Origin: a candidate division KSB1 bacterium
GTDB lineage: Bacteria > Zhuqueibacterota > JdFR-76 > DREG01
Length of the DNA stretch: 41,184 bases
NCBI GenBank assembly: GCA_022566355.1
Contig: JADFJB010000024.1
Span: 1-41,184 of the forward strand
Direction: 5' to 3'
The translations under genes were made by a program, and so were the position numbers. Below are positions 1,836-37,102 of this stretch, one piece after another. How positions within the stretch are numbered: the stretch's first letter is position 1; the number at the start of each line of letters is the position of its first letter. The notes beneath the pieces were generated by a model that was not told the origin of the DNA, made no database searches, and was given only the letters and a program-made list of their open reading frames with translations.

Positions 1836-2066
1836 TTCAGGAACACGGCATTGCGAACATCCTTGATTCCGATACTCAATGCATTTTTTGCCGTGGGACT
1901 TGTTTCGCTGCCGGGGATGATGACCGGGCAGATTTTATCGGGTATCTCTCCTCTACTAGCGGTTCGTTATCAAATCATGGTGATGTGCATGATATTTGGT
2001 TCGGCGGGAATTTCGACGGCGCTATTTCTGACATTCATAAAATCGAATCTTGAACTCTTTAAATAG
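1836..2066 (+). pseudogene. fetB: 3' fragment of an iron-export ABC permease gene (FetB/YbbM, UPF0014), copy 1
   Basis: Frame reads FRNTALRTSLIPILNA then VGLVSLPGMMTGQILSG and AVRYQIMVMCMIF, which is the conserved C-terminal third of the FetB family (GLVSLPGMMTGQIL and AVRYQI are family hallmarks). A normal protein is about 250-270 residues; only the last ~76 codons remain because the frame is closed upstream by TAG at 1821-1823. No start codon with a ribosome site is visible. The last 138 bases (1929-2066) recur at 4526-4663. The bases just before the fragment (TATCTATAGAAACTATC, about 1816) resemble the sequence at 24427-24442, beside repeat B. Confidence 0.75.
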
Positions 2067-2148
2067 CAACCTCAAAAAGAATTGAAAATTATGAAAAAAG
2101 GTTAATGAGCACTTTGGTTTTTAACTGTAGCCCTCAATGGAGGATGTT

Positions 2149-4518
2149 ATGCAGCTTATAAACATGTTAACGCAGCTCGCCATTTGTTCTTTGCTAGTCT
2201 TGTTTTCCACCAGCATTGTGAAAGCAGAGGGCAACCCCAATAAACCCAGGAGTCGCAGCAATTCATCAACTCCTGCGACAGGATTTGAATGCGGGGTTTA
2301 CAAAGGATCGGACCAGGAGTTCTTGTGGCATTACTACCAATACCAGGCAAGAATGAAAAGTCTGAACAAGTCAGGAGGAGTATTACCCGGTAGAGATTTT
2401 GTTTTTGACGATGTCGCGGTGATTGAAGATGATGGTAGCTTCCTTATTACCGGTATTAATCTGTTTGACACGGATATGAAGACTTTTCATTTTACACCAA
2501 ATGCTAATAATGGCTATGATGTTGCAAATATTGCATTTAGCTTTGATTCGGATTTCGGCAACAACCTTAATTTGGAAGATGATGCGAATGCGACGGCCGA
2601 CCTCCCCTTTATATTTACTTATTATGGCGGGAGTTGGACCGCTATACATGTAAACGCTAATGGCATCATTAGTTTTGGCGGCGACATTAATGCAAGCTCA
2701 GGCCGTTTCAATAATAATGATTTTTTTAGTACCCTGCCAAAAATTGCCGCTTACTTCATGGATTTAAATCCGGAGGAGAGTGGCGATGTTTTTTTCAAAA
2801 GTGAATCGGGCAAAGTGACCATTACCTGGAATCAAATCGCTGAGTTCCGCACAAATAACCTGAATACCATCCAGTTAGTACTTCGTTTTGACAATACTTT
2901 CGACATCTCCTTCAATGGGGTTACGACTAAAAATCAAACCAGCGGCGCCCCAATTACTTTTGGAATTCATCCCGGCGGTATGCCAAATCTAGAAGCAATC
3001 AGCTTTTCGGATAATATCCCTTTTACCGGACCTGCCGGCGCCGGAATATTTGAAACCTACCTTAATGTTCAAAACCCGATGGTAAACCGTTTCGCTTTAA
3101 TGAATAGGTTTTATCAAACTTACCCCGACAGTTTTTTTCAAGCAGTTTTCTTTACGAATTTTCAACAAACCATGCGTGGTTTCGCCAATTCAAGAACAAT
3201 TAAGACTAATATTCAAGGGATTGGTGTACGTATTCGAGACGGAAGCCAAGCCTATGGTAGCAATAGTATTCTTGAGAGTATTTGTAATATGAACCAAATG
3301 AGCGTCTGGCCGATCGATCCCGAAGCACGATTGCCTTCATCCGGGCATACTTTTTTGACCATTATGGGCCAGGAATCCGGACACCGCTGGGGAGCGTTTG
3401 TCAATTTCGTCGATGCGAATGGAGATACGAGCGATTTAATCATCGGGCGTCAGGATGCCCACTGGAGTTACTATTTCGATACCGACCACTCGGTGATGCA
3501 AGGCGGGGATTGGGAACACGTTTCAGGAAACACATTTACCAGCCGGACTCAGATAGATTTTTTTAGCGAACTCGATGAATATCTTATGGGGTTGAGAGCA
3601 CCGGAGGAGGTTGCCCCTACTATTTTTGTCAGCAGTGCGACGAATGACTTGTTAGCTAACCGCTCGCAAGGACCACCACTCATGAATGCATTTGCGACAG
3701 GAACCGCTGTGGAAGTGACTATTGAAGCCATCATCGCCGCCGAAGGGCCGCGGCTTCCCGCTGAAGCTGATGCGCCCAAAGACTTCAGGCAAGTGTTTAT
3801 GCTTGTCATCCGGAATGGCAGCACGCCATCACAAGGCGATCTTGACAAGATCGCGAATTTTCGCAGAGTTTGGCAGGATTATTTCGAGCGTTCCGTCGAT
3901 GGCCGGATGACCTTGAACACAAGTCTCACCCAAACATTTCCTGTAGCTGTAATCTCGGGCCATGTCCTGGATGAGGCGGATCATGCCATAGAAAATATCA
4001 CGGTAAAATCCTCAGAAAGGGGATTTGTGCAATTCGTCCCTGGCGGCGGCCGCTACACATTTCGCTACCTGGCTGATGCAAATTCAGGGACAGGCGAATC
4101 CATTACGATCATTACGGACGCCCCCGGCTATGGTGCGGATACCCTGGTCACCAGTATTGCTTATGGAACAGAAACTGAGGTTGATATCGTGCTTCAAGCA
4201 ATTGCAACTTTTGTAGCGGAGACAGAAAACCAGGTGCCCGGGTCCTTTGCTTTAGAGCAGAATTATCCCAATCCGTTTAATCCTGCCACAACCATTCAAA
4301 TCAAACTGCCTGTACAATCAGAAGTGACTTTGGCTATTTACAATTTGAATGGACAGCTCGTTCGTACTTTAGTTCAAGAAAATCTTCCTGCCGGAAATCA
4401 CAGCTTTCTTTGGGATGGCCGGAATGAGCGGGGCAGCGAAGTTGCAAGCGGTCTATACGTGAGCCGGCTGAAAGCAGGGCAGTTTACCCAACACCGGAAG
4501 ATGCTGCTAATGAGGTAG
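2149..4518 (+). CDS. T9SS-exported protein with NIDO-like domain and a metallopeptidase-like domain lacking the first zinc His
   Basis: ATG 2149 is chosen because GGAGG (2139-2143) lies just upstream; the in-frame ATG at 2137 lacks such a site. Product ~789 residues: signal peptide to about residue 26 (..SIVKA), NIDO-like beta domain about 100-290 (VNANGIISFGG, TITWNQ, NTIQLVLRF), then a peptidase-like domain with GQESGHRWG at 406-414. Zinc peptidases of this type carry HExxH; here Q408 replaces the first His while E409 and H412 remain. After it come IIGRQDAHWSYYFDTDHSVM and ELDEYLMGL, then a carboxypeptidase-regulatory-like domain about 600-690 and a FlgD-like T9SS sorting domain (QNYPNPFNP, SGLYVSRL, RKMLLM). 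Probably exported to the cell surface; catalytic activity is doubtful. It lies between two copies of the fetB gene tail. Confidence 0.8.
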   Translation: MQLINMLTQLAICSLLVLFSTSIVKAEGNPNKPRSRSNSSTPATGFECGVYKGSDQEFLWHYYQYQARMKSLNKSGGVLPGRDFVFDDVAVIEDDGSFLITGINLFDTDMKTFHFTPNANNGYDVANIAFSFDSDFGNNLNLEDDANATADLPFIFTYYGGSWTAIHVNANGIISFGGDINASSGRFNNNDFFSTLPKIAAYFMDLNPEESGDVFFKSESGKVTITWNQIAEFRTNNLNTIQLVLRFDNTFDISFNGVTTKNQTSGAPITFGIHPGGMPNLEAISFSDNIPFTGPAGAGIFETYLNVQNPMVNRFALMNRFYQTYPDSFFQAVFFTNFQQTMRGFANSRTIKTNIQGIGVRIRDGSQAYGSNSILESICNMNQMSVWPIDPEARLPSSGHTFLTIMGQESGHRWGAFVNFVDANGDTSDLIIGRQDAHWSYYFDTDHSVMQGGDWEHVSGNTFTSRTQIDFFSELDEYLMGLRAPEEVAPTIFVSSATNDLLANRSQGPPLMNAFATGTAVEVTIEAIIAAEGPRLPAEADAPKDFRQVFMLVIRNGSTPSQGDLDKIANFRRVWQDYFERSVDGRMTLNTSLTQTFPVAVISGHVLDEADHAIENITVKSSERGFVQFVPGGGRYTFRYLADANSGTGESITIITDAPGYGADTLVTSIAYGTETEVDIVLQAIATFVAETENQVPGSFALEQNYPNPFNPATTIQIKLPVQSEVTLAIYNLNGQLVRTLVQENLPAGNHSFLWDGRNERGSEVASGLYVSRLKAGQFTQHRKMLLMR

Positions 4519-4525
4519 TGGGGAA

Positions 4526-4663
4526 CAGATTTTATCAGGTATCTCTCCTCTACTTGCCGTTTGCTATCAAATCATGGCTATGTGCATGATATTTGGTTCG
4601 GCTGGAATTTCGACGGCGCTATTTCTAACATTCATAAAATCTAATCTTGAACTATTCGAATAG
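4526..4663 (+). pseudogene. fetB: fetB 3' fragment, copy 2
   Basis: 138 bases aligned without gaps to 1929-2066 with 13 mismatches (about 91% identity), in frame to the same TAG. Eight mismatches are synonymous third-position changes; three residues change (R to C in AVRYQI, V to A, K to E). It begins seven bases after the stop of the preceding gene and has no start. With copy 1 it forms direct repeats around the T9SS gene. Confidence 0.75.
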
Positions 4664-4695
4664 CTTCGGATTTTGTTACAGAAATGTTAGATTTG

Positions 4696-4810
4696 CCTTG
4701 ACTATTTCAACCTTGTTGATTACCTTGGATTTATTCAAAAAATTGAATAATCCGTTGGGGAAACCATGGTAGCGTTGCACCATACAACTTCAAAAACTGA
4801 AAAACCGAAT
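4696..4810 (+). repeat. Dispersed repeat A, copy 1
   Basis: Shares with 12936-13050, 15626-15741 and 36318-36430 the order CTTGAnTTTT, then AATAATCCGTTGGGG, then an ATGG..CGTTG block, then ACAACTTCAAAAACT and AAAAACCGAA. It is intergenic, lies directly after the fetB relic, and ends about 60 bases before the next gene start. No ORF spans it. Confidence 0.6.
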
Positions 4811-12421: not shown

Positions 12422-12868
12422 ATGGATTTACCAAACGCACCCATCCCGCAAACAGGATTTTTTGTCACTCACTTTTTAACGGTCGAAGACCAGTCGAAAT
12501 CCAGGGAATTTTATGTTGGCATCCTTGGCGGAAAAGTCGTTAATCCCGAAAATCCCTGTATCATAAAACTGGCAAACTCCTGGATCATACTCAACTCCGG
12601 CGGCGGGCCTACGCCGGATAAACCGGAAGTATTTCTTGAACCTCCGCAAGATCCCAATAAAGTCAACAGTTTTTTGAATTTGCGAGTGGCGGATATACAA
12701 AGCTGCTACAATGACTGGAAGGAAAAAGGCGCGCACTTTCTAACGGAACCGCTCGACAACCATGGCTGGGAAATTCGATGTTATATGCGTGATCCTGATG
12801 GCTATATCCTCGAAGTTGGACAAGCGAGCCAAAAGATGATCGATTTATTCAACGCTCACGAAGGTTGA
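12422..12868 (+). CDS. VOC-superfamily (glyoxalase/dioxygenase-like) protein
   Basis: 148 residues, the usual length for a two-module VOC domain. It starts with a GFFVTHFLTVEDQSKSREFY strand-helix unit (metal-ligand position H17), continues with SFLNLRVADIQSCYNDW and ends with the typical RDPDGYILEVGQA, whose Glu is the usual last metal ligand. AGGAG lies about seven bases before the ATG. VOC proteins include glyoxalases, antibiotic-binding proteins and ring-cleaving dioxygenases; nothing here decides the substrate. Its last ~17 codons recur as a relic near 15511-15567, on the far side of the NfeD-flotillin operon. Confidence 0.85.
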   Translation: MDLPNAPIPQTGFFVTHFLTVEDQSKSREFYVGILGGKVVNPENPCIIKLANSWIILNSGGGPTPDKPEVFLEPPQDPNKVNSFLNLRVADIQSCYNDWKEKGAHFLTEPLDNHGWEIRCYMRDPDGYILEVGQASQKMIDLFNAHEG

Positions 12869-13050
12869 AATTTAAGATTTAAGTTCAACGGGAATTATGT
12901 GCCATATTGCTTTTATATTTCAATTCCTGATTTTTCTTGATTTTTGCAGGTCTGTTGGTTATTTTTATATAATTTCAAAATAGAATAATCCGTTGGGGAT
13001 TTATGGAAACGTTGTACTACAAAATTTCAAATTCTCAAAAGCCGAAATTG
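12817..13050 (+). repeat. Long direct repeat, left copy (VOC gene tail plus repeat A copy 2)
   Basis: The last codons of the VOC gene and the following intergenic DNA align with 15511-15741: GGACAAGCGAG, CAAAAGATGA, GATTTATTCAA, then GGGAATT, CTTGATTTTTG, and AATAATCCGTTGGGGATTTA followed by TGGAAACGTTG. Repeat A itself begins near 12936. The two copies bracket nfeD and the flotillin gene. The rest of 13051-13277 shows no gene. Confidence 0.65.
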
Positions 13051-13264
13051 CCGGATGAACGGTTTGACGCCTGGGCGGTTTATCGTCCTATTTATGATAA
13101 GATACATCTTCTCCGGCTTGTTCCGGCTAATAAATGATGGAAAAGGCAAATGGAATGGAAAGTGAGTTTTTGTGTGGAATCCCCTATAATAAAATCTTGG
13201 AGTTCGGCTTGGAAATAGATTGGTTGAATAAAAAATGAGTACATTGTTATAATACTTTACGGAA

Positions 13265-15510: not shown

Positions 15511-15741
15511 GGGACAAGCGAGTCAAAAGATGAATGATTTATTCAAGGTATACAAAGGTAGAATTTGAGATTTTAACTCAATGGGAATTGTATGTCATCT
15601 AGTTTTATCTTTCTATTTGATTTTCCTTGATTTTTGTAGACCTGTTGGCTATCTTCGGTTTAATTTAAAATTTTAATAATCCGTTGGGGATTTATGGAAA
15701 CGTTGGACCGCACAATTTCAAAACCTCAAAAACCAAAATTG
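15511..15741 (+). repeat. Long direct repeat, right copy (VOC tail relic plus repeat A copy 3)
   Basis: 15512-15568 reads GQASQKMNDLFKVYKGRI and stop, against GQASQKMIDLFNAHEG and stop at the end of the VOC gene. The following DNA repeats 12869-13050, with repeat A beginning at about 15626. It has no start and is a non-functional relic. Confidence 0.65.
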
Positions 15742-15788
15742 CTAGATCAAGTTCACCAAAAATTCTGAATAATAACAGTCAGGATACG

Positions 15789-20714: not shown

Positions 20715-20822
20715 CTATAAACGTCAGCTACCAAATATCTTTTTAGTGAAAACCAATTGTTTCACCCAAAAACCAGAAATTTAGAAATATTTTAGTTTAG
20801 TTGTTAACTAGAAAGGTAAAAA

Positions 20823-21065
20823 ATGAGATCGATAAACATCCACGAGGCAAAAACCAACTTATCCAGGATTGCTGAAGAGGTTGCCGCTGGTGAAGAAGTT
20901 ATTGTGGTAAAAGCAGTTAAACCAAAAATGAAGCTTGTTCCTATTGATAACATCAAAAAAAAGATAAAATTAGGCGCGTTAAAAGGAAAGATCCAAATCA
21001 GCAAAGATTTTGACGCCCCTTTACCTCCAAATATTATTGATGAATTTTATGGCCGGAACCAATGA
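20823..21065 (+). CDS. Phd/YefM-type antitoxin
   Basis: 80 residues: MRSINIHEAKTNLSRIAEEV is the conserved N-terminal DNA-binding/dimer unit of Phd/YefM antitoxins, followed by GEEVIVVKAVKPKMKLVPI and a C-terminal toxin-binding tail with LGALKGKI and PLPPNIIDEFYG, as in antitoxins paired with PIN-domain VapC toxins. It is intact, with GAAAGG before the ATG. It overlaps the following toxin gene by four bases (ATGA). Since the toxin is dead, the antitoxin may survive as a repressor of its own promoter or protect against related toxins. Confidence 0.85.
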   Translation: MRSINIHEAKTNLSRIAEEVAAGEEVIVVKAVKPKMKLVPIDNIKKKIKLGALKGKIQISKDFDAPLPPNIIDEFYGRNQ

Positions 21066-21370
21066 GATTATTACTGGATACGCATATTCTACTATGGTGT
21101 CTGGAAGGAAGCGATGATTTACCGGATTAAACGCGACAATTGGTTTTATCCGCTGATGAAGTATATGCAAGTACTGTTAACATTTAGGAAATCATTATTA
21201 ATCTTTTGCACATTAAACCTGATCATGCTATTAAACTTATAGATTTGGAAGATTATCATGGAGATCCATTTGATCGCATGTTAATTGCCCAGAGCCTTGT
21301 TGAACCATTGCATTTGGTTACATGTGATTCATTAGTGGCAAAATACAATGCTAATATTATTAGAGTGTGA
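21062..21370 (+). pseudogene. PIN-domain VapC-type toxin, inactivated by two stop codons and a deletion
   Basis: All recognisable parts are in one frame: MRLLLDTHILLWCLEGSDDL (catalytic Asp in LDTH), then LSADEVYASTVNI, then AIKLIDLEDYHGDPFDRMLI and LVTCDSLVAKYN (DPFDR and TxD motifs). TAA at 21128-21130 and TAG at 21185-21187 interrupt it; the TAG stands where PIN toxins of this group have Trp in the WE motif (TGG to TAG). About 20 residues expected between WEI and the HA-LxL region are absent. The toxin cannot be made whole, so this is decay of a vapBC-like pair. Confidence 0.8.
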
Positions 21371-24620: not shown

Positions 24621-24708
24621 GATAATGCCAGATCGTCTTAAGTGGAAGCGGTTTAATAAGAAAGAGTTTTGATAATACAAAAAGAGAATCAACAGAACGA
24701 AGGGAAAA

Positions 24709-24997
24709 ATGAACAGAGATGAAATACTGCTTTTTTTACGCCGTTTTAGAGAAAAATATCATTCAAAATACAACATTGTCAAAATCGGAGTTTTTGGTTC
24801 AGCGGCAAGAGACAGTATGAACGATAAAAGCGATATTGATATTGTTGTGGATTTAGGAAGGCCTGACTATTTTAACCTCATTGGCATAAAGCAAGCACTG
24901 GAGGAACAGCTCCATTATCCGGTAGATATTGTACGTACAGGATAACATGAACAAATATCTAAAGCAGAGAATCGATGCAGAGGCCATTTATGTATGA
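24709..24997 (+). pseudogene. MntA-type nucleotidyltransferase antitoxin, frameshifted near its end
   Basis: The first frame gives 78 residues with the minimal nucleotidyltransferase signature GVFGSAARDSMNDKSDIDIV and then VDLGRPDYFNLIGIKQALEE. It stops at 24943-24945 after VDIVRTG. Skipping one G near 24940 restores DNMNKYLKQRIDAEAIYV and a stop at 24995-24997, the expected family C-terminus (about 96 residues). MntA proteins neutralise HepT toxins by AMP transfer to a toxin Tyr. The catalytic part is intact, so the shortened product may still work. The restored stop overlaps the HepT start at 24990. Confidence 0.7.
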
Positions 24998-25362
24998 TAG
25001 AGGCTTTGTTTTAGAAATATTAACTCAAATTTATCAGGCCGTATCTATCATTAGTAGACGAATTAAGCCCATAAAATCAGCAAATGATTTCACAGATTCT
25101 GAAGAAGGAATGGAAAAACTGGATGCGATCTGTATGCAATTAATTCGATTGGTGAAAGCCAGAAAAATATGGATAAGATTACAAGCAAATCCCTTTTACC
25201 TAAATATCCTCAAATAGAATGGGACAAATCAAAGGAATGAGAGATATTATTAGCCATCACTATTTCGATGTAGATGCTGAAGTTGTTTTTGATGTTTGCA
25301 AAAATCATATTGATGAACTGGCGAAGACAATTAACCAAATCATCAAAGATATATCACAATGA
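24990..25362 (+). pseudogene. HepT-like HEPN toxin, broken by two one-base frameshifts
   Basis: Three frames each carry a collinear part of a HepT protein: MYDRGFVLEILTQIYQAV through EKLDAICMQLI (from 24990); then IGESQKNMDKITSKSLLPKY and EWDKSKE (from about 25151); then GMRDIISHHYFDVDAEVVFD through KTINQIIKDI (25234-25362). The RNase motif Rx4-6H of HEPN (R..IISHHYF) is in the last part. One missing base near 25148 and one missing A near 25233 explain both breaks. As written, no whole toxin is made. Either the pair is decaying or the assembly has residual indels here. Confidence 0.7.
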
Positions 25363-33196: not shown

Positions 33197-35512
33197 TTAC
33201 CTGGCCTGGAAACTAGAAATCTTCCAGTTGCCATTGATTTGTTCGATTGTCCACGTATATGCGTAACTAATGGGTGGTCTTCTTCTGTTCTTATTGTCGA
33301 TATAGAAAATCCGCATTAAGATATCCACCGTCGCGCTATTTTCGCCGAATTTAATACTTTCTTGTGCGATTTGAACCCTTTGAATATTGATACGTCTAAA
33401 AGTCTTGCGCCATTTGTCCCTTTCGGATTGGATTAAATTAGTAAATAATGAGCGAACACCCTCAATATTCTTTTTCTCTAGACTGCCTTTAAATTTGTCA
33501 ATGACGCTTTTAACGCCTTGCTCAATGATAGATATTCGCTCTCTTTCACTATCAGTTTTTTCTTTTTCCATTAATGCAGCTTCAGTAACCACTTGACCAA
33601 AATTTAGCTCTGCATCTTTAAAATGGCTGGCAGCAGCGTTAAAATCATTTTGACTGTATGCCGTATTGCCATCCGTCTCAAATTGAATGGCTTTTTGGTA
33701 TTTTGCGTTTGTGAAATCATTTTGTTGAACATTTTCTTTTGCGGCATTCATCGAGGTCTTGGCATTGTTAGCGTTGTCTTTTAGTGTTGCCAGGATATTA
33801 ACTTTGGCTTCCGCATAAAGCATTTTTGCATTCTCGAAAGAAAACAACGCCGCATTAAAATCTTTGGCATCAAATTCACCATCACCCTTTTCTTCACGTG
33901 CAATTGCTTGTTGGTATTGATTGTTTCTTTTCTTATCTGTTTGACTACCCGGAAGTTGCGTTTTGATATCCATCATATCTGACCGCATTTGTACAACCCT
34001 GCTTTCTATGTTGGGTTTTGCTGGCCGTTCAATATTCACGCTGGATGCCGCTTCGTCTCTTGCTTTTTGGTAACCATCCTTTGCCATTGTAAACGCCATT
34101 TTTGCTGCACGCAAACTTTCTTTACCACCCGCAGTCATTTTTTCGTTTCCAACAATCTCTTGTTGAATGGCGTCATCGTAATAAACGTTTGCTTTTATAT
34201 TCGCATCTATCTTATCAGCCGCTGTTTTCTCCACTAACATTTCCGTTCGAATTTCTACAACTTCCTGTCTAATTTTGTTAAGAGCTTCTGTTTCCGCTTC
34301 AGTTTTACTTTGGGTCTGTGCTAATTTTGCCGGCATGCCTGGGGCAGACTGCCAGGATAGCACGCTGAATGCGGAGGCCAATACGATTACTGAAGCGTAA
34401 AGTAATACTTCCACACCTCTAAGTTTGTCAGGTCCTTTCCGGCCATGAAAGTAAGCAATGATTCCAGCAATTGGAAATCCCGATAATATACAAATTAGAA
34501 TCACTTGATGCCATCTTGGGTCAAATTTGTATTGATCGATAAAATAGGGGCCTACTTCGAACAGACCTATTGAAACCATCAGGTACGATCCAACAATTGG
34601 TATAAATTTACGCCGGCGAATTTCCCGGATAAATCGGGAAGTAAGGGACTCTTTGGAAATCGGGCGTTTCTGGTCAGGTATATCGACTATTGTAAGGGTT
34701 AATTCTTCAGGTTGTATTTTATTTAATTTATTGAGAAACGAGTTAGCATCTTCGGTTCGAACTTCTCTGTCTTTTTCAAGCAATCCTTCTATAAGTGAAA
34801 ATAGTGGATTAGAGATGTTTCGAATTGCAGCCATCCCGCTTGCATCTTCATTGAGGATCTTAAAAAGGATCGCGGCATCGTAATCTCCGGTAAAAGGTCT
34901 ATTACCGGTCAAAACTTCGATTAATATTACACCAAGAGACCATAAATCAGAGCGTGCGTCAACAATTTCACCTCTCACTTGTTCAGGCGACATATACGAA
35001 AGCGTTCCCAAAGTTGACCCACTCTGGGTTACCTGGGTGTGTTCTTCTCGACGTGCCAGGCCAAAATCCATTATTTTCACGATCCCGTTTTGATCCGTCA
35101 TAATGTTGGCCGGCTTCAAGTCTCTATGCACGATACCCTTCTTGTGTGCTGCCGCAAGTCCACGTACCACTTGCTTGGCCAATTCGATTGTTTGTTTCAC
35201 AGACAATGGTCCTTTAGCCAGCCGCGTTTCCAAAGATTCTCCCTCTACCAATGCCATAGCTATGTACGATTGGTTTTGGAATTCTCCAAATTCAAAGATG
35301 GTGCAGATGTTGGGGTGATCCAATGCCGAGGCCGCTTTCGCTTCATTGTGAAATCTTTTTTTTGATTCCTCATTTTCAAGTAAATGAGGAGGAAGGAACT
35401 TGAGAGCTACATCCCGGTCTAAGGTTGTGTCATGAGCTCGATAAACCACTCCCATCCCGCCACGACCTATTTCTTCTACTATTTTATAATGAGAAATTGA
35501 CTTGCCTATCAT
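33197..35512 (-). CDS. Membrane Ser/Thr protein kinase with periplasmic-side coiled repeats and NTF2-like C-terminal domain
   Basis: 771 residues. Complete Hanks kinase: G-loop GRGGMGVVY (16-24), ATP-anchor Lys38 in VALKFL, Glu57, HRDLKPAN (129-136, catalytic Asp131), DFG (149-151), SPEQ activation segment and DARSDLWSLGVIL. Three membrane helices about 300-400 (FIPIVGSYLMVSIGLF, VILICILSGFPIAGIIAYF, VLLYASVIVLASAFSVLSW) follow, then an Ala/Lys/Glu-rich helical region with TPR-like duplicates (NDFTNAKYQKAIQFETDGN; QNDFNAAASHFKDAE) and a C-terminal NTF2/SnoaL-like domain about 670-771 (VIDKFKGSLEKKNIEGVRSL ... WTIEQINGNWKISSF). The C-terminal part likely lies outside the cytoplasm and senses a ligand. 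Its start overlaps the stop of a 41-codon kinase stub upstream (ATGA). It may control the surface-protein genes downstream in the same run. Confidence 0.9.
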   Translation of the reverse strand: MIGKSISHYKIVEEIGRGGMGVVYRAHDTTLDRDVALKFLPPHLLENEESKKRFHNEAKAASALDHPNICTIFEFGEFQNQSYIAMALVEGESLETRLAKGPLSVKQTIELAKQVVRGLAAAHKKGIVHRDLKPANIMTDQNGIVKIMDFGLARREEHTQVTQSGSTLGTLSYMSPEQVRGEIVDARSDLWSLGVILIEVLTGNRPFTGDYDAAILFKILNEDASGMAAIRNISNPLFSLIEGLLEKDREVRTEDANSFLNKLNKIQPEELTLTIVDIPDQKRPISKESLTSRFIREIRRRKFIPIVGSYLMVSIGLFEVGPYFIDQYKFDPRWHQVILICILSGFPIAGIIAYFHGRKGPDKLRGVEVLLYASVIVLASAFSVLSWQSAPGMPAKLAQTQSKTEAETEALNKIRQEVVEIRTEMLVEKTAADKIDANIKANVYYDDAIQQEIVGNEKMTAGGKESLRAAKMAFTMAKDGYQKARDEAASSVNIERPAKPNIESRVVQMRSDMMDIKTQLPGSQTDKKRNNQYQQAIAREEKGDGEFDAKDFNAALFSFENAKMLYAEAKVNILATLKDNANNAKTSMNAAKENVQQNDFTNAKYQKAIQFETDGNTAYSQNDFNAAASHFKDAELNFGQVVTEAALMEKEKTDSERERISIIEQGVKSVIDKFKGSLEKKNIEGVRSLFTNLIQSERDKWRKTFRRINIQRVQIAQESIKFGENSATVDILMRIFYIDNKNRRRPPISYAYTWTIEQINGNWKISSFQAR

Positions 35513-35634
35513 AGGCTCATCCAGGAATTTATTTCTTTCTGTCTGCGGGACGACTTGTCCCGATCTGTCGGGAAGTTCCCGCCACGGCCAATCTCCTCCA
35601 AGATTTTGTAATGAGAGATAGTTTTACCGATCAT
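35509..35634 (-). pseudogene. Kinase 5'-end stub, a truncated second kinase start
   Basis: The minus strand from 35634 reads MIGKTISHYKILEEIGRGG, nearly the start of the intact kinase (MIGKSISHYKIVEEIGRGG), then runs into GC-rich palindromic DNA (GGGACGACTTGTCCC and CCCGATCTGTCGGG hairpins) and stops after 41 codons. Its TGA overlaps the ATG of the real kinase. It has synonymous and non-synonymous differences from the real gene, so it is a relic of a paralogue and not a recent tandem copy. As written it might act as a leader peptide whose translation feeds into the kinase start. Confidence 0.6.
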
Positions 35635-35700
35635 AACTGAGTTTCTTTCGATTTAATTAACCTGGTCTATTCATAAACTTTGTCACTGGTTTATAAAACT

Positions 35701-36430: not shown

Positions 36431-36587
36431 TGCAGGAGGTTTAGGTTGCTATGCGGATCAAAACTATAGCATTTACGAGACTTGTGAGGTCTGCTAGTGT
36501 GATTAAGTGTATTCCATTTTCGAATTGATTTGGTGAACATACATGAGTATATTAATTTCAAAGTCTTAAACAGAAAGAATTCATAAG

Positions 36588-36824
36588 ATGACAGAATTTG
36601 AAAAAATTACTTCACACATACTTTCTCTCCCTACGGAGAAAAGGGCGGAATTAGCTGAAATTCTAATTCAAAGCCTCGATGAAAAAGAAAACGAAGATGT
36701 TAAAGGAGCTTGGTTATTGGAAATTAAACACCGAGATCAAGAAATCAGATCTGGAACCGCGGAAATGAAATCAGCGCAAGAAGTTCTTCACGAAGCTCGT
36801 GAACAGCTAAGATGTATGAAATAG
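36588..36824 (+). CDS. Addiction-module antitoxin (TIGR02574/RelB-like)
   Basis: 78 residues. ITSHILSLPTEKRAELAEIL and LIQSLDE form the N-terminal helical part, and AWLLEIKHRDQEIRSGTAEM then KSAQEVLHEAREQL is the conserved C-terminal half of this family. These antitoxins pair with ParE/RelE toxins, and the toxin gene starts 13 bases before this stop. Expected to be an autorepressing antitoxin. Confidence 0.88.
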   Translation: MTEFEKITSHILSLPTEKRAELAEILIQSLDEKENEDVKGAWLLEIKHRDQEIRSGTAEMKSAQEVLHEAREQLRCMK

Positions 36825-37102
36825 CAATTCATGTTGACGCAGAAAGAGAGTTAAATGCTGCTGCGCTGTATTATGAAGAAAGTGTTGAAGGATTAGGACA
36901 GCAGTTTTTGGATGAATTCGAAGAAGCCATCTCTCAAATACAAAAATTCCCTAAAGCATCTCCAATTTACGAAGAAGAATACAGACGTTATCTTCTGAAA
37001 CGATTTCCATTTGGCGTCATCTACCGAATTGATGGTGACGATCTTTTTATCATCGCGATTGCCCACCTTAAAAGAAAGCCAAACTACTGGGTATCTCGAT
37101 AG
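36812..37102 (+). CDS. ParE/RelE-family toxin
   Basis: 96 residues. IAIHVDAERELNAAALYYEE, then LGQQFLDEFEEAISQIQKFP, RRYLLKRFPFGVIYRIDGD and IAIAHLKRKPNYWVSR match the ParE/RelE fold with the conserved RxFPFxVxY strand and the final AHxxRxPxYW motif. It is full length and intact, unlike the other toxins in this window. ParE members poison gyrase and RelE members cut ribosome-bound mRNA; AHxxRxPxYW fits the ParE-like branch. Translation is coupled to the antitoxin by the 13-base overlap. Confidence 0.88.
   Translation: MYEIAIHVDAERELNAAALYYEESVEGLGQQFLDEFEEAISQIQKFPKASPIYEEEYRRYLLKRFPFGVIYRIDGDDLFIIAIAHLKRKPNYWVSR

Follow-up and report, generated by a model that had tools for sequence, protein, structure and literature searches.

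In the genome of a candidate division KSB1 bacterium, two C-terminal fragments of the permease gene fetB lie in direct orientation on either side of a single gene for a secreted protein, and we judge the chances to be about even that this locus would be the scar left by DNA that entered a resident fetB gene at its 3' end. The window, i.e., the whole stretch of DNA that was analysed, comprises 41,184 nucleotides (contig JADFJB010000024.1, positions 1 to 41,184), and both fetB tails are less than 5 kb away from the contig end. The insert between them measures 2.46 kb and holds one gene, with the tails 2.6 kb apart. The locus is composed of the following features:

1839-2066, plus strand: fetB tail 1, the C-terminal ~75 codons and stop without the gene head, matching PF03649 positions 170-238 at 89-92 bits (frame inspected)
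1929-2066, plus strand: duplicated segment, copy 1, 138 bp with a TAG stop at its end
2137-4518, plus strand: bracketed gene for a secreted protein of 793 aa with a T9SS sorting tail (PF18962, PF13860, TIGR04183)
4519-4525, no strand: right junction, the 7 bases of sequence from the stop of the bracketed gene to fetB tail 2
4526-4663, plus strand: fetB tail 2, which is also copy 2 of the duplicated segment, the C-terminal 45 codons and stop (PF03649 positions 201-238)
4687-4810, plus strand: interspersed repeat R2, following tail 2, with other copies at 12977-13046 and 15616-15737 and on contigs C35 and C86

An ungapped comparison of 1929-2066 with 4526-4663 reproduced the alignment described in an earlier note on this DNA, i.e., 138 bases with 13 mismatches and no gaps, and both copies keep an open reading frame with a stop codon. 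The mismatches are distributed over the three codon positions as 2, 1 and 10, thus 10 of 13 fall at the third position, and eight are synonymous, while the other five are spread over three codons that encode different residues in the two copies (R to C, V to A and K to E). The probability of eight or more synonymous changes among 13 random substitutions is about 0.001-0.006, and dN is 0.030 against a dS of 0.39 (NG86). Because the mismatches are biased by coding, both copies were still working gene ends while they diverged, in line with the coding constraint that the note had proposed. The longest exact match between the two tails is 23 bases, and the 138-bp repeat is present nowhere else in the genome (4.62 Mb in 213 contigs, 98.5% complete by estimate). 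The homology runs out one base past the stop codon, comparison of the flanks revealed no shared 3' UTR, and the 80 bases on each side of the tails are dissimilar (28% and 20% ungapped, with local scores within those of shuffles). The unrelated flanks, together with a gene after tail 2 that is unlike the bracketed gene, argue against tandem duplication and agree with the claim that the pair is not a simple recent duplication.

Judged by their sequence, both segments are the C-terminal tail of FetB (UPF0014). In a profile search of the genome contigs, tail 1 reached 89 bits and tail 2 29.9 bits against a PF03649 cut-off of 22.6, and the matched positions (170-238 and 201-238 of 242) are those of the C-terminus, thus the assignment of both pieces to fetB holds. 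The two tails resemble the FetB/UPF0014 iron-efflux permease in belonging to the C-terminus of the family (PF03649, TIGR00245), and differ from it in that neither is a gene; with 75 and 45 codons they fall short of the approximately 240 residues of a full-length permease and stay far under the TIGR00245 cut-off of 410. The homology of tail 1 to FetB starts abruptly near 1839, hence this tail is longer than the 138-base repeat; its fetB homology was correctly recognised before, and its start was placed too far to the right, at 1929. The draft genome contains no further PF03649 match, head included, and the earlier statement that no full fetB exists in the window can be extended to the rest of the draft genome.

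The two tails are 91% identical in their shared region, and either of them is at most 77% identical to about 100 other fetB genes. A tree of 96 rows places them as sisters (support 99/97) on branches of 0.0099 for tail 1 and 0.087 for tail 2; the alignment comprises only 117 columns, and the other forks of the fetB tree are therefore poorly resolved. Such a strong sister relationship indicates an origin in the same or very close lineages, and so adds to the proposal that the pieces derive from two related fetB genes. Tail 2 alone replaces an arginine found in all of 95 other fetB sequences (R to C) and a valine conserved in 94 of the 95 (V to A), and most of the mismatches are unpolarised since the synonymous sites are too diverged from the outgroups. 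The constraint appears asymmetric, and the pattern fits tail 2 as the copy that may have been the first to lose function.

The search for full fetB genes that the note had suggested found none in the genome itself and full-length FetB in three further genomes of this phylum (G001, G033 and G040; 76-84% aa identity to tail 1). The relatives are not syntenic with the window at the fetB-tail locus, and none of the related loci examined repeats the paired-tail arrangement, nor did relatives reveal a known repeat unrelated to fetB in the same arrangement. The same fetB subfamily is found across many phyla at 70-88% identity, and at the loci L036, L028 and L041, in genomes of Cytophagales, Brocadiaceae and Desulfobacteraceae, fetB is decayed or 5'-truncated. 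The idea that the tails are widespread viral or plasmid cargo was rejected, as the plasmid and phage matches are ordinary fetB genes with less than 60% identity and the one match on a viral contig has 49%.

The bracketed protein is 793 aa long, or 789 aa if translated from the ATG at 2149, which has GGAGG in front. Only the T9SS sorting tail and a FlgD-Ig domain are recognised in it by Pfam and NCBIfam, neither of which recognises a protease domain, and the motif conserved among aligned relatives is (Q/E)ExxH rather than HExxH. The label of a T9SS protease-like gene is thus supported in its T9SS part and unsupported in its protease part, which is a correction to the earlier note, while its observation of paired, coding-constrained fetB tails stands. 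Relatives of the protein occur in other families of the phylum, with 65% aa identity over the full length in G056 and 57% in G060; the DNA similarity to G056 is limited to the CDS (2135-4517), and the neighbouring genes differ. The AlphaFold model of the protein has a pLDDT of 42 and is too poor to use. No recombinase domain was found by Pfam between the tails, where this is the sole long gene.

We hypothesize that the two tails can both be explained by an insertion at the 3' end of a gene; it is the likeness to the icd/icdC pair of Escherichia coli, compared below, that points to the 3' end of fetB as the site. Incoming DNA would have brought a diverged 3' end of fetB of its own, with the T9SS-sorted gene behind it. 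By recombination in or close to the end of fetB, the resident head would have been joined to the incoming tail (tail 1), thus fetB would have stayed intact at first, and the displaced original tail of 138 bp (tail 2) would have remained to the right of the insert. Tail 2, now unused, would have started to gather amino-acid changes, and a later, separate rearrangement would have deleted the fetB head up to about 1839. The order of these events, which of the tails is foreign and the route of recombination are inferred. The right junction at 4526 is abrupt.

The faster branch of tail 2, with its changes at conserved residues, counts for the insertion, as do the signature shared with icd/icdC, the unrelated flanks and the further gene-tail pairs in this genome described below, whereas the lack of a recombinase between the tails and of an empty site or intact intermediate in the relatives examined counts against it, together with the unpolarised mismatches and the tail-type pairs of control genomes; the synteny of G001 upstream of the M14 peptidase also yielded no empty site. 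A further point against it is that, with the fetB head gone, the genome does not show the hybrid gene that the model predicts. As for the route, a homology-guided insertion, either homologous at one end and illegitimate at the other or by a single crossover of a circle, may tentatively be proposed, and site-specific integration of an element that is now without its recombinase would be an unlikely route. Both give the same anatomy, and with no recombinase in the insert the homology-guided route is at least as likely as the site-specific one.

The tails could also descend from tandem fetB paralogues of an old lineage duplication, which diverged while functional, were separated by the entry of the T9SS-sorted gene and later lost both heads by deletion. 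The sister position of the tails and their divergence under constraint would suit such a history, as would the orientation of near repeats that are not both coding in 1.64 Mb of the genome (37 direct and 3 inverted), since tandem duplication yields direct repeats. We nevertheless consider it rather unlikely, because at least three independent events would be needed, two of them ending inside fetB, the sequences downstream of the two tails are unrelated, and no second fetB copy was found within the fetched flanks at about 108 loci with fetB relatives. That random decay and rearrangement left the debris of two unrelated fetB acquisitions close together by chance is decidedly unlikely. The window does hold other gene fragments (the methyltransferase tail at 1162-1323, a HepT tail, a split PIN domain and a weak M55 head) and fetB is truncated at L028, L041 and L036, but the tails are strongly supported sisters in direct orientation, 2.6 kb apart and ending at the same base, and two acquisitions from the same lineage would be an extra coincidence. 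A chimeric contig, in which two strains or loci were joined near the contig start, is conceivable in a draft of 213 contigs with the tails less than 5 kb from a contig end and is highly improbable, since 23 bases, the longest exact match, are little for a false join, no frame is broken, and similar tail pairs are found well inside other contigs. We abandoned a 5'-truncation (retrocopy) model, as the window also contains gene heads and the tails have no shared 3' UTR.

Gene-tail pairs were detected at eight places in 1.64 Mb of the genome, some of them weak. Duplicated tails with other genes between them belong to a HAD hydrolase (contig C14), a glyoxalase (in the window), a helicase (C7) and an epimerase (C1); the helicase pair is not third-position-biased, and a case on C39 resembles a non-coding repeat. 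The HAD-hydrolase end on C14 (34785-34972 and 36195-36384, 88% over 187 bp, 1.4 kb apart) ends at the stop codon, is third-position-biased and has two small opposite-strand ORFs between its copies. The 3' end of the glyoxalase gene, with its last 50 bases and about 190 downstream (12818-13059), is repeated at 15512-15750 with about 80% identity, 8 kb from the fetB locus, and two intact genes, one flotillin-like by eye, lie between these copies. Among the controls, 400 kb of G002 yielded one tail-type case and 191 kb of G040 up to three, some from paralogous genes; the 350 kb of E. coli yielded none. As the samples are too small and mixed, we claim no enrichment over the controls, and since such pairs also occur in control genomes, the bacterium is not shown to be special in this respect. 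It is very doubtful that this bacterium repeatedly gains single genes by insertion at resident 3' gene ends, with no recombinase and a displaced tail each time; if true, such a recurrent gene-end route would allow small gene gains to be read from paired tails.

Several other features of the window were recorded. The C-terminal tail of a SAM-dependent methyltransferase at 1162-1323 forms an in-frame fusion with an unrelated ORF upstream, and the full-length enzyme (about 270 aa) is present in G022, G070, G018, G016 and G069. It is followed at 1320-1615 by a BrnA-like antitoxin ORF that matches NF047399 weakly; in front of it lies a short ORF ending in KKETEQYEEY, which by eye is like the end of a BrnT toxin and has no confirmation by Pfam or NCBIfam. 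Further toxin-antitoxin-like intergenic pairs lie at 20820-21367 (Phd/PIN, with PIN split over frames), 24676-25359 (a nucleotidyltransferase and the tail only of HepT) and 36570-37099 (an addiction-module antitoxin and a ParE toxin). On the minus strand, a kinase-like gene start at 35512-35652 (MIGKTISHYKILEEIGRGG) stands immediately upstream of the kinase gene 33197-35512 and is almost identical to the beginning of that gene, by eye a gene-head duplication. The interspersed repeat R1 at 432-585 (about 70-155 bp with an imperfect stem) has copies on C13, C60, C44 and C18 at 83-91%, and R2, which carries AATAATCCGTTGGGGA...GTTG, sits after gene ends or before gene starts; no Rfam match to a structured RNA was found in the repeats. 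The stemmed short repeats at 432-585 resembled attC, but their ends form no attC core pair, and an integron cassette array was thus rejected; the genome has no IntI match to TIGR02249 above the cut-off of 265 bits (best 78.5). Insertion based on a tRNA was rejected too, as the window is without a tRNA.

The type of scar proposed here is already known, and the fetB locus would be an instructive but fairly ordinary instance of it. CIME-like remnants are integrated segments between att sites that have no recombinase; the fetB locus is similar in that its cargo lies between two related repeats and the recombinase gene is absent, and differs in that neither a recombinase in trans nor an att core was identified. 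In homology-facilitated illegitimate recombination with serial displacement, described for the T6SS immunity arrays of Vibrio cholerae and for Rhs orphan tips, incoming DNA is anchored by homology at one end and 3' gene ends are pushed downstream, with products comparable to the fetB scar (PMC5361080, PMC3240628); the fetB locus would share this anchoring if its insertion was homology-guided. The pieces displaced in those systems are immunity genes or toxin tips on which selection acts, whereas the fetB locus has a transporter tail with no evident use.

The closest counterpart is the prophage e14 of E. coli K-12, which is inserted in icd after codon 362 and displaced a 165-bp tail that differs by 12 exchanges, with two amino acids replaced conservatively (PMC11148124, PMC6379469). 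Analysed with the same script, icd/icdC gave 165 bp, 12 mismatches (1, 0 and 11 by codon position), a dN of 0.016 and a dS of 0.36, with the homology ending 0 bases past the stop. Both loci have a direct duplication of a 3' gene end around an insert, about 7-9% divergence that is mostly synonymous, an intact frame and an end of homology at the stop. However, e14 is 15 kb long, carries an integrase gene and left icd intact, whereas the fetB insert of 2.46 kb holds one gene and lacks a recombinase, and in place of an intact hybrid target gene the homology breaks off near 1839, with the head gone. Should scars of this kind prove common in this lineage, they would offer a simple means of detecting small gene gains that escape island-finding tools. 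Paired tails with mostly synonymous differences may record an insertion and the gene that it struck, even when the recombinase and the head of the target have since been lost.
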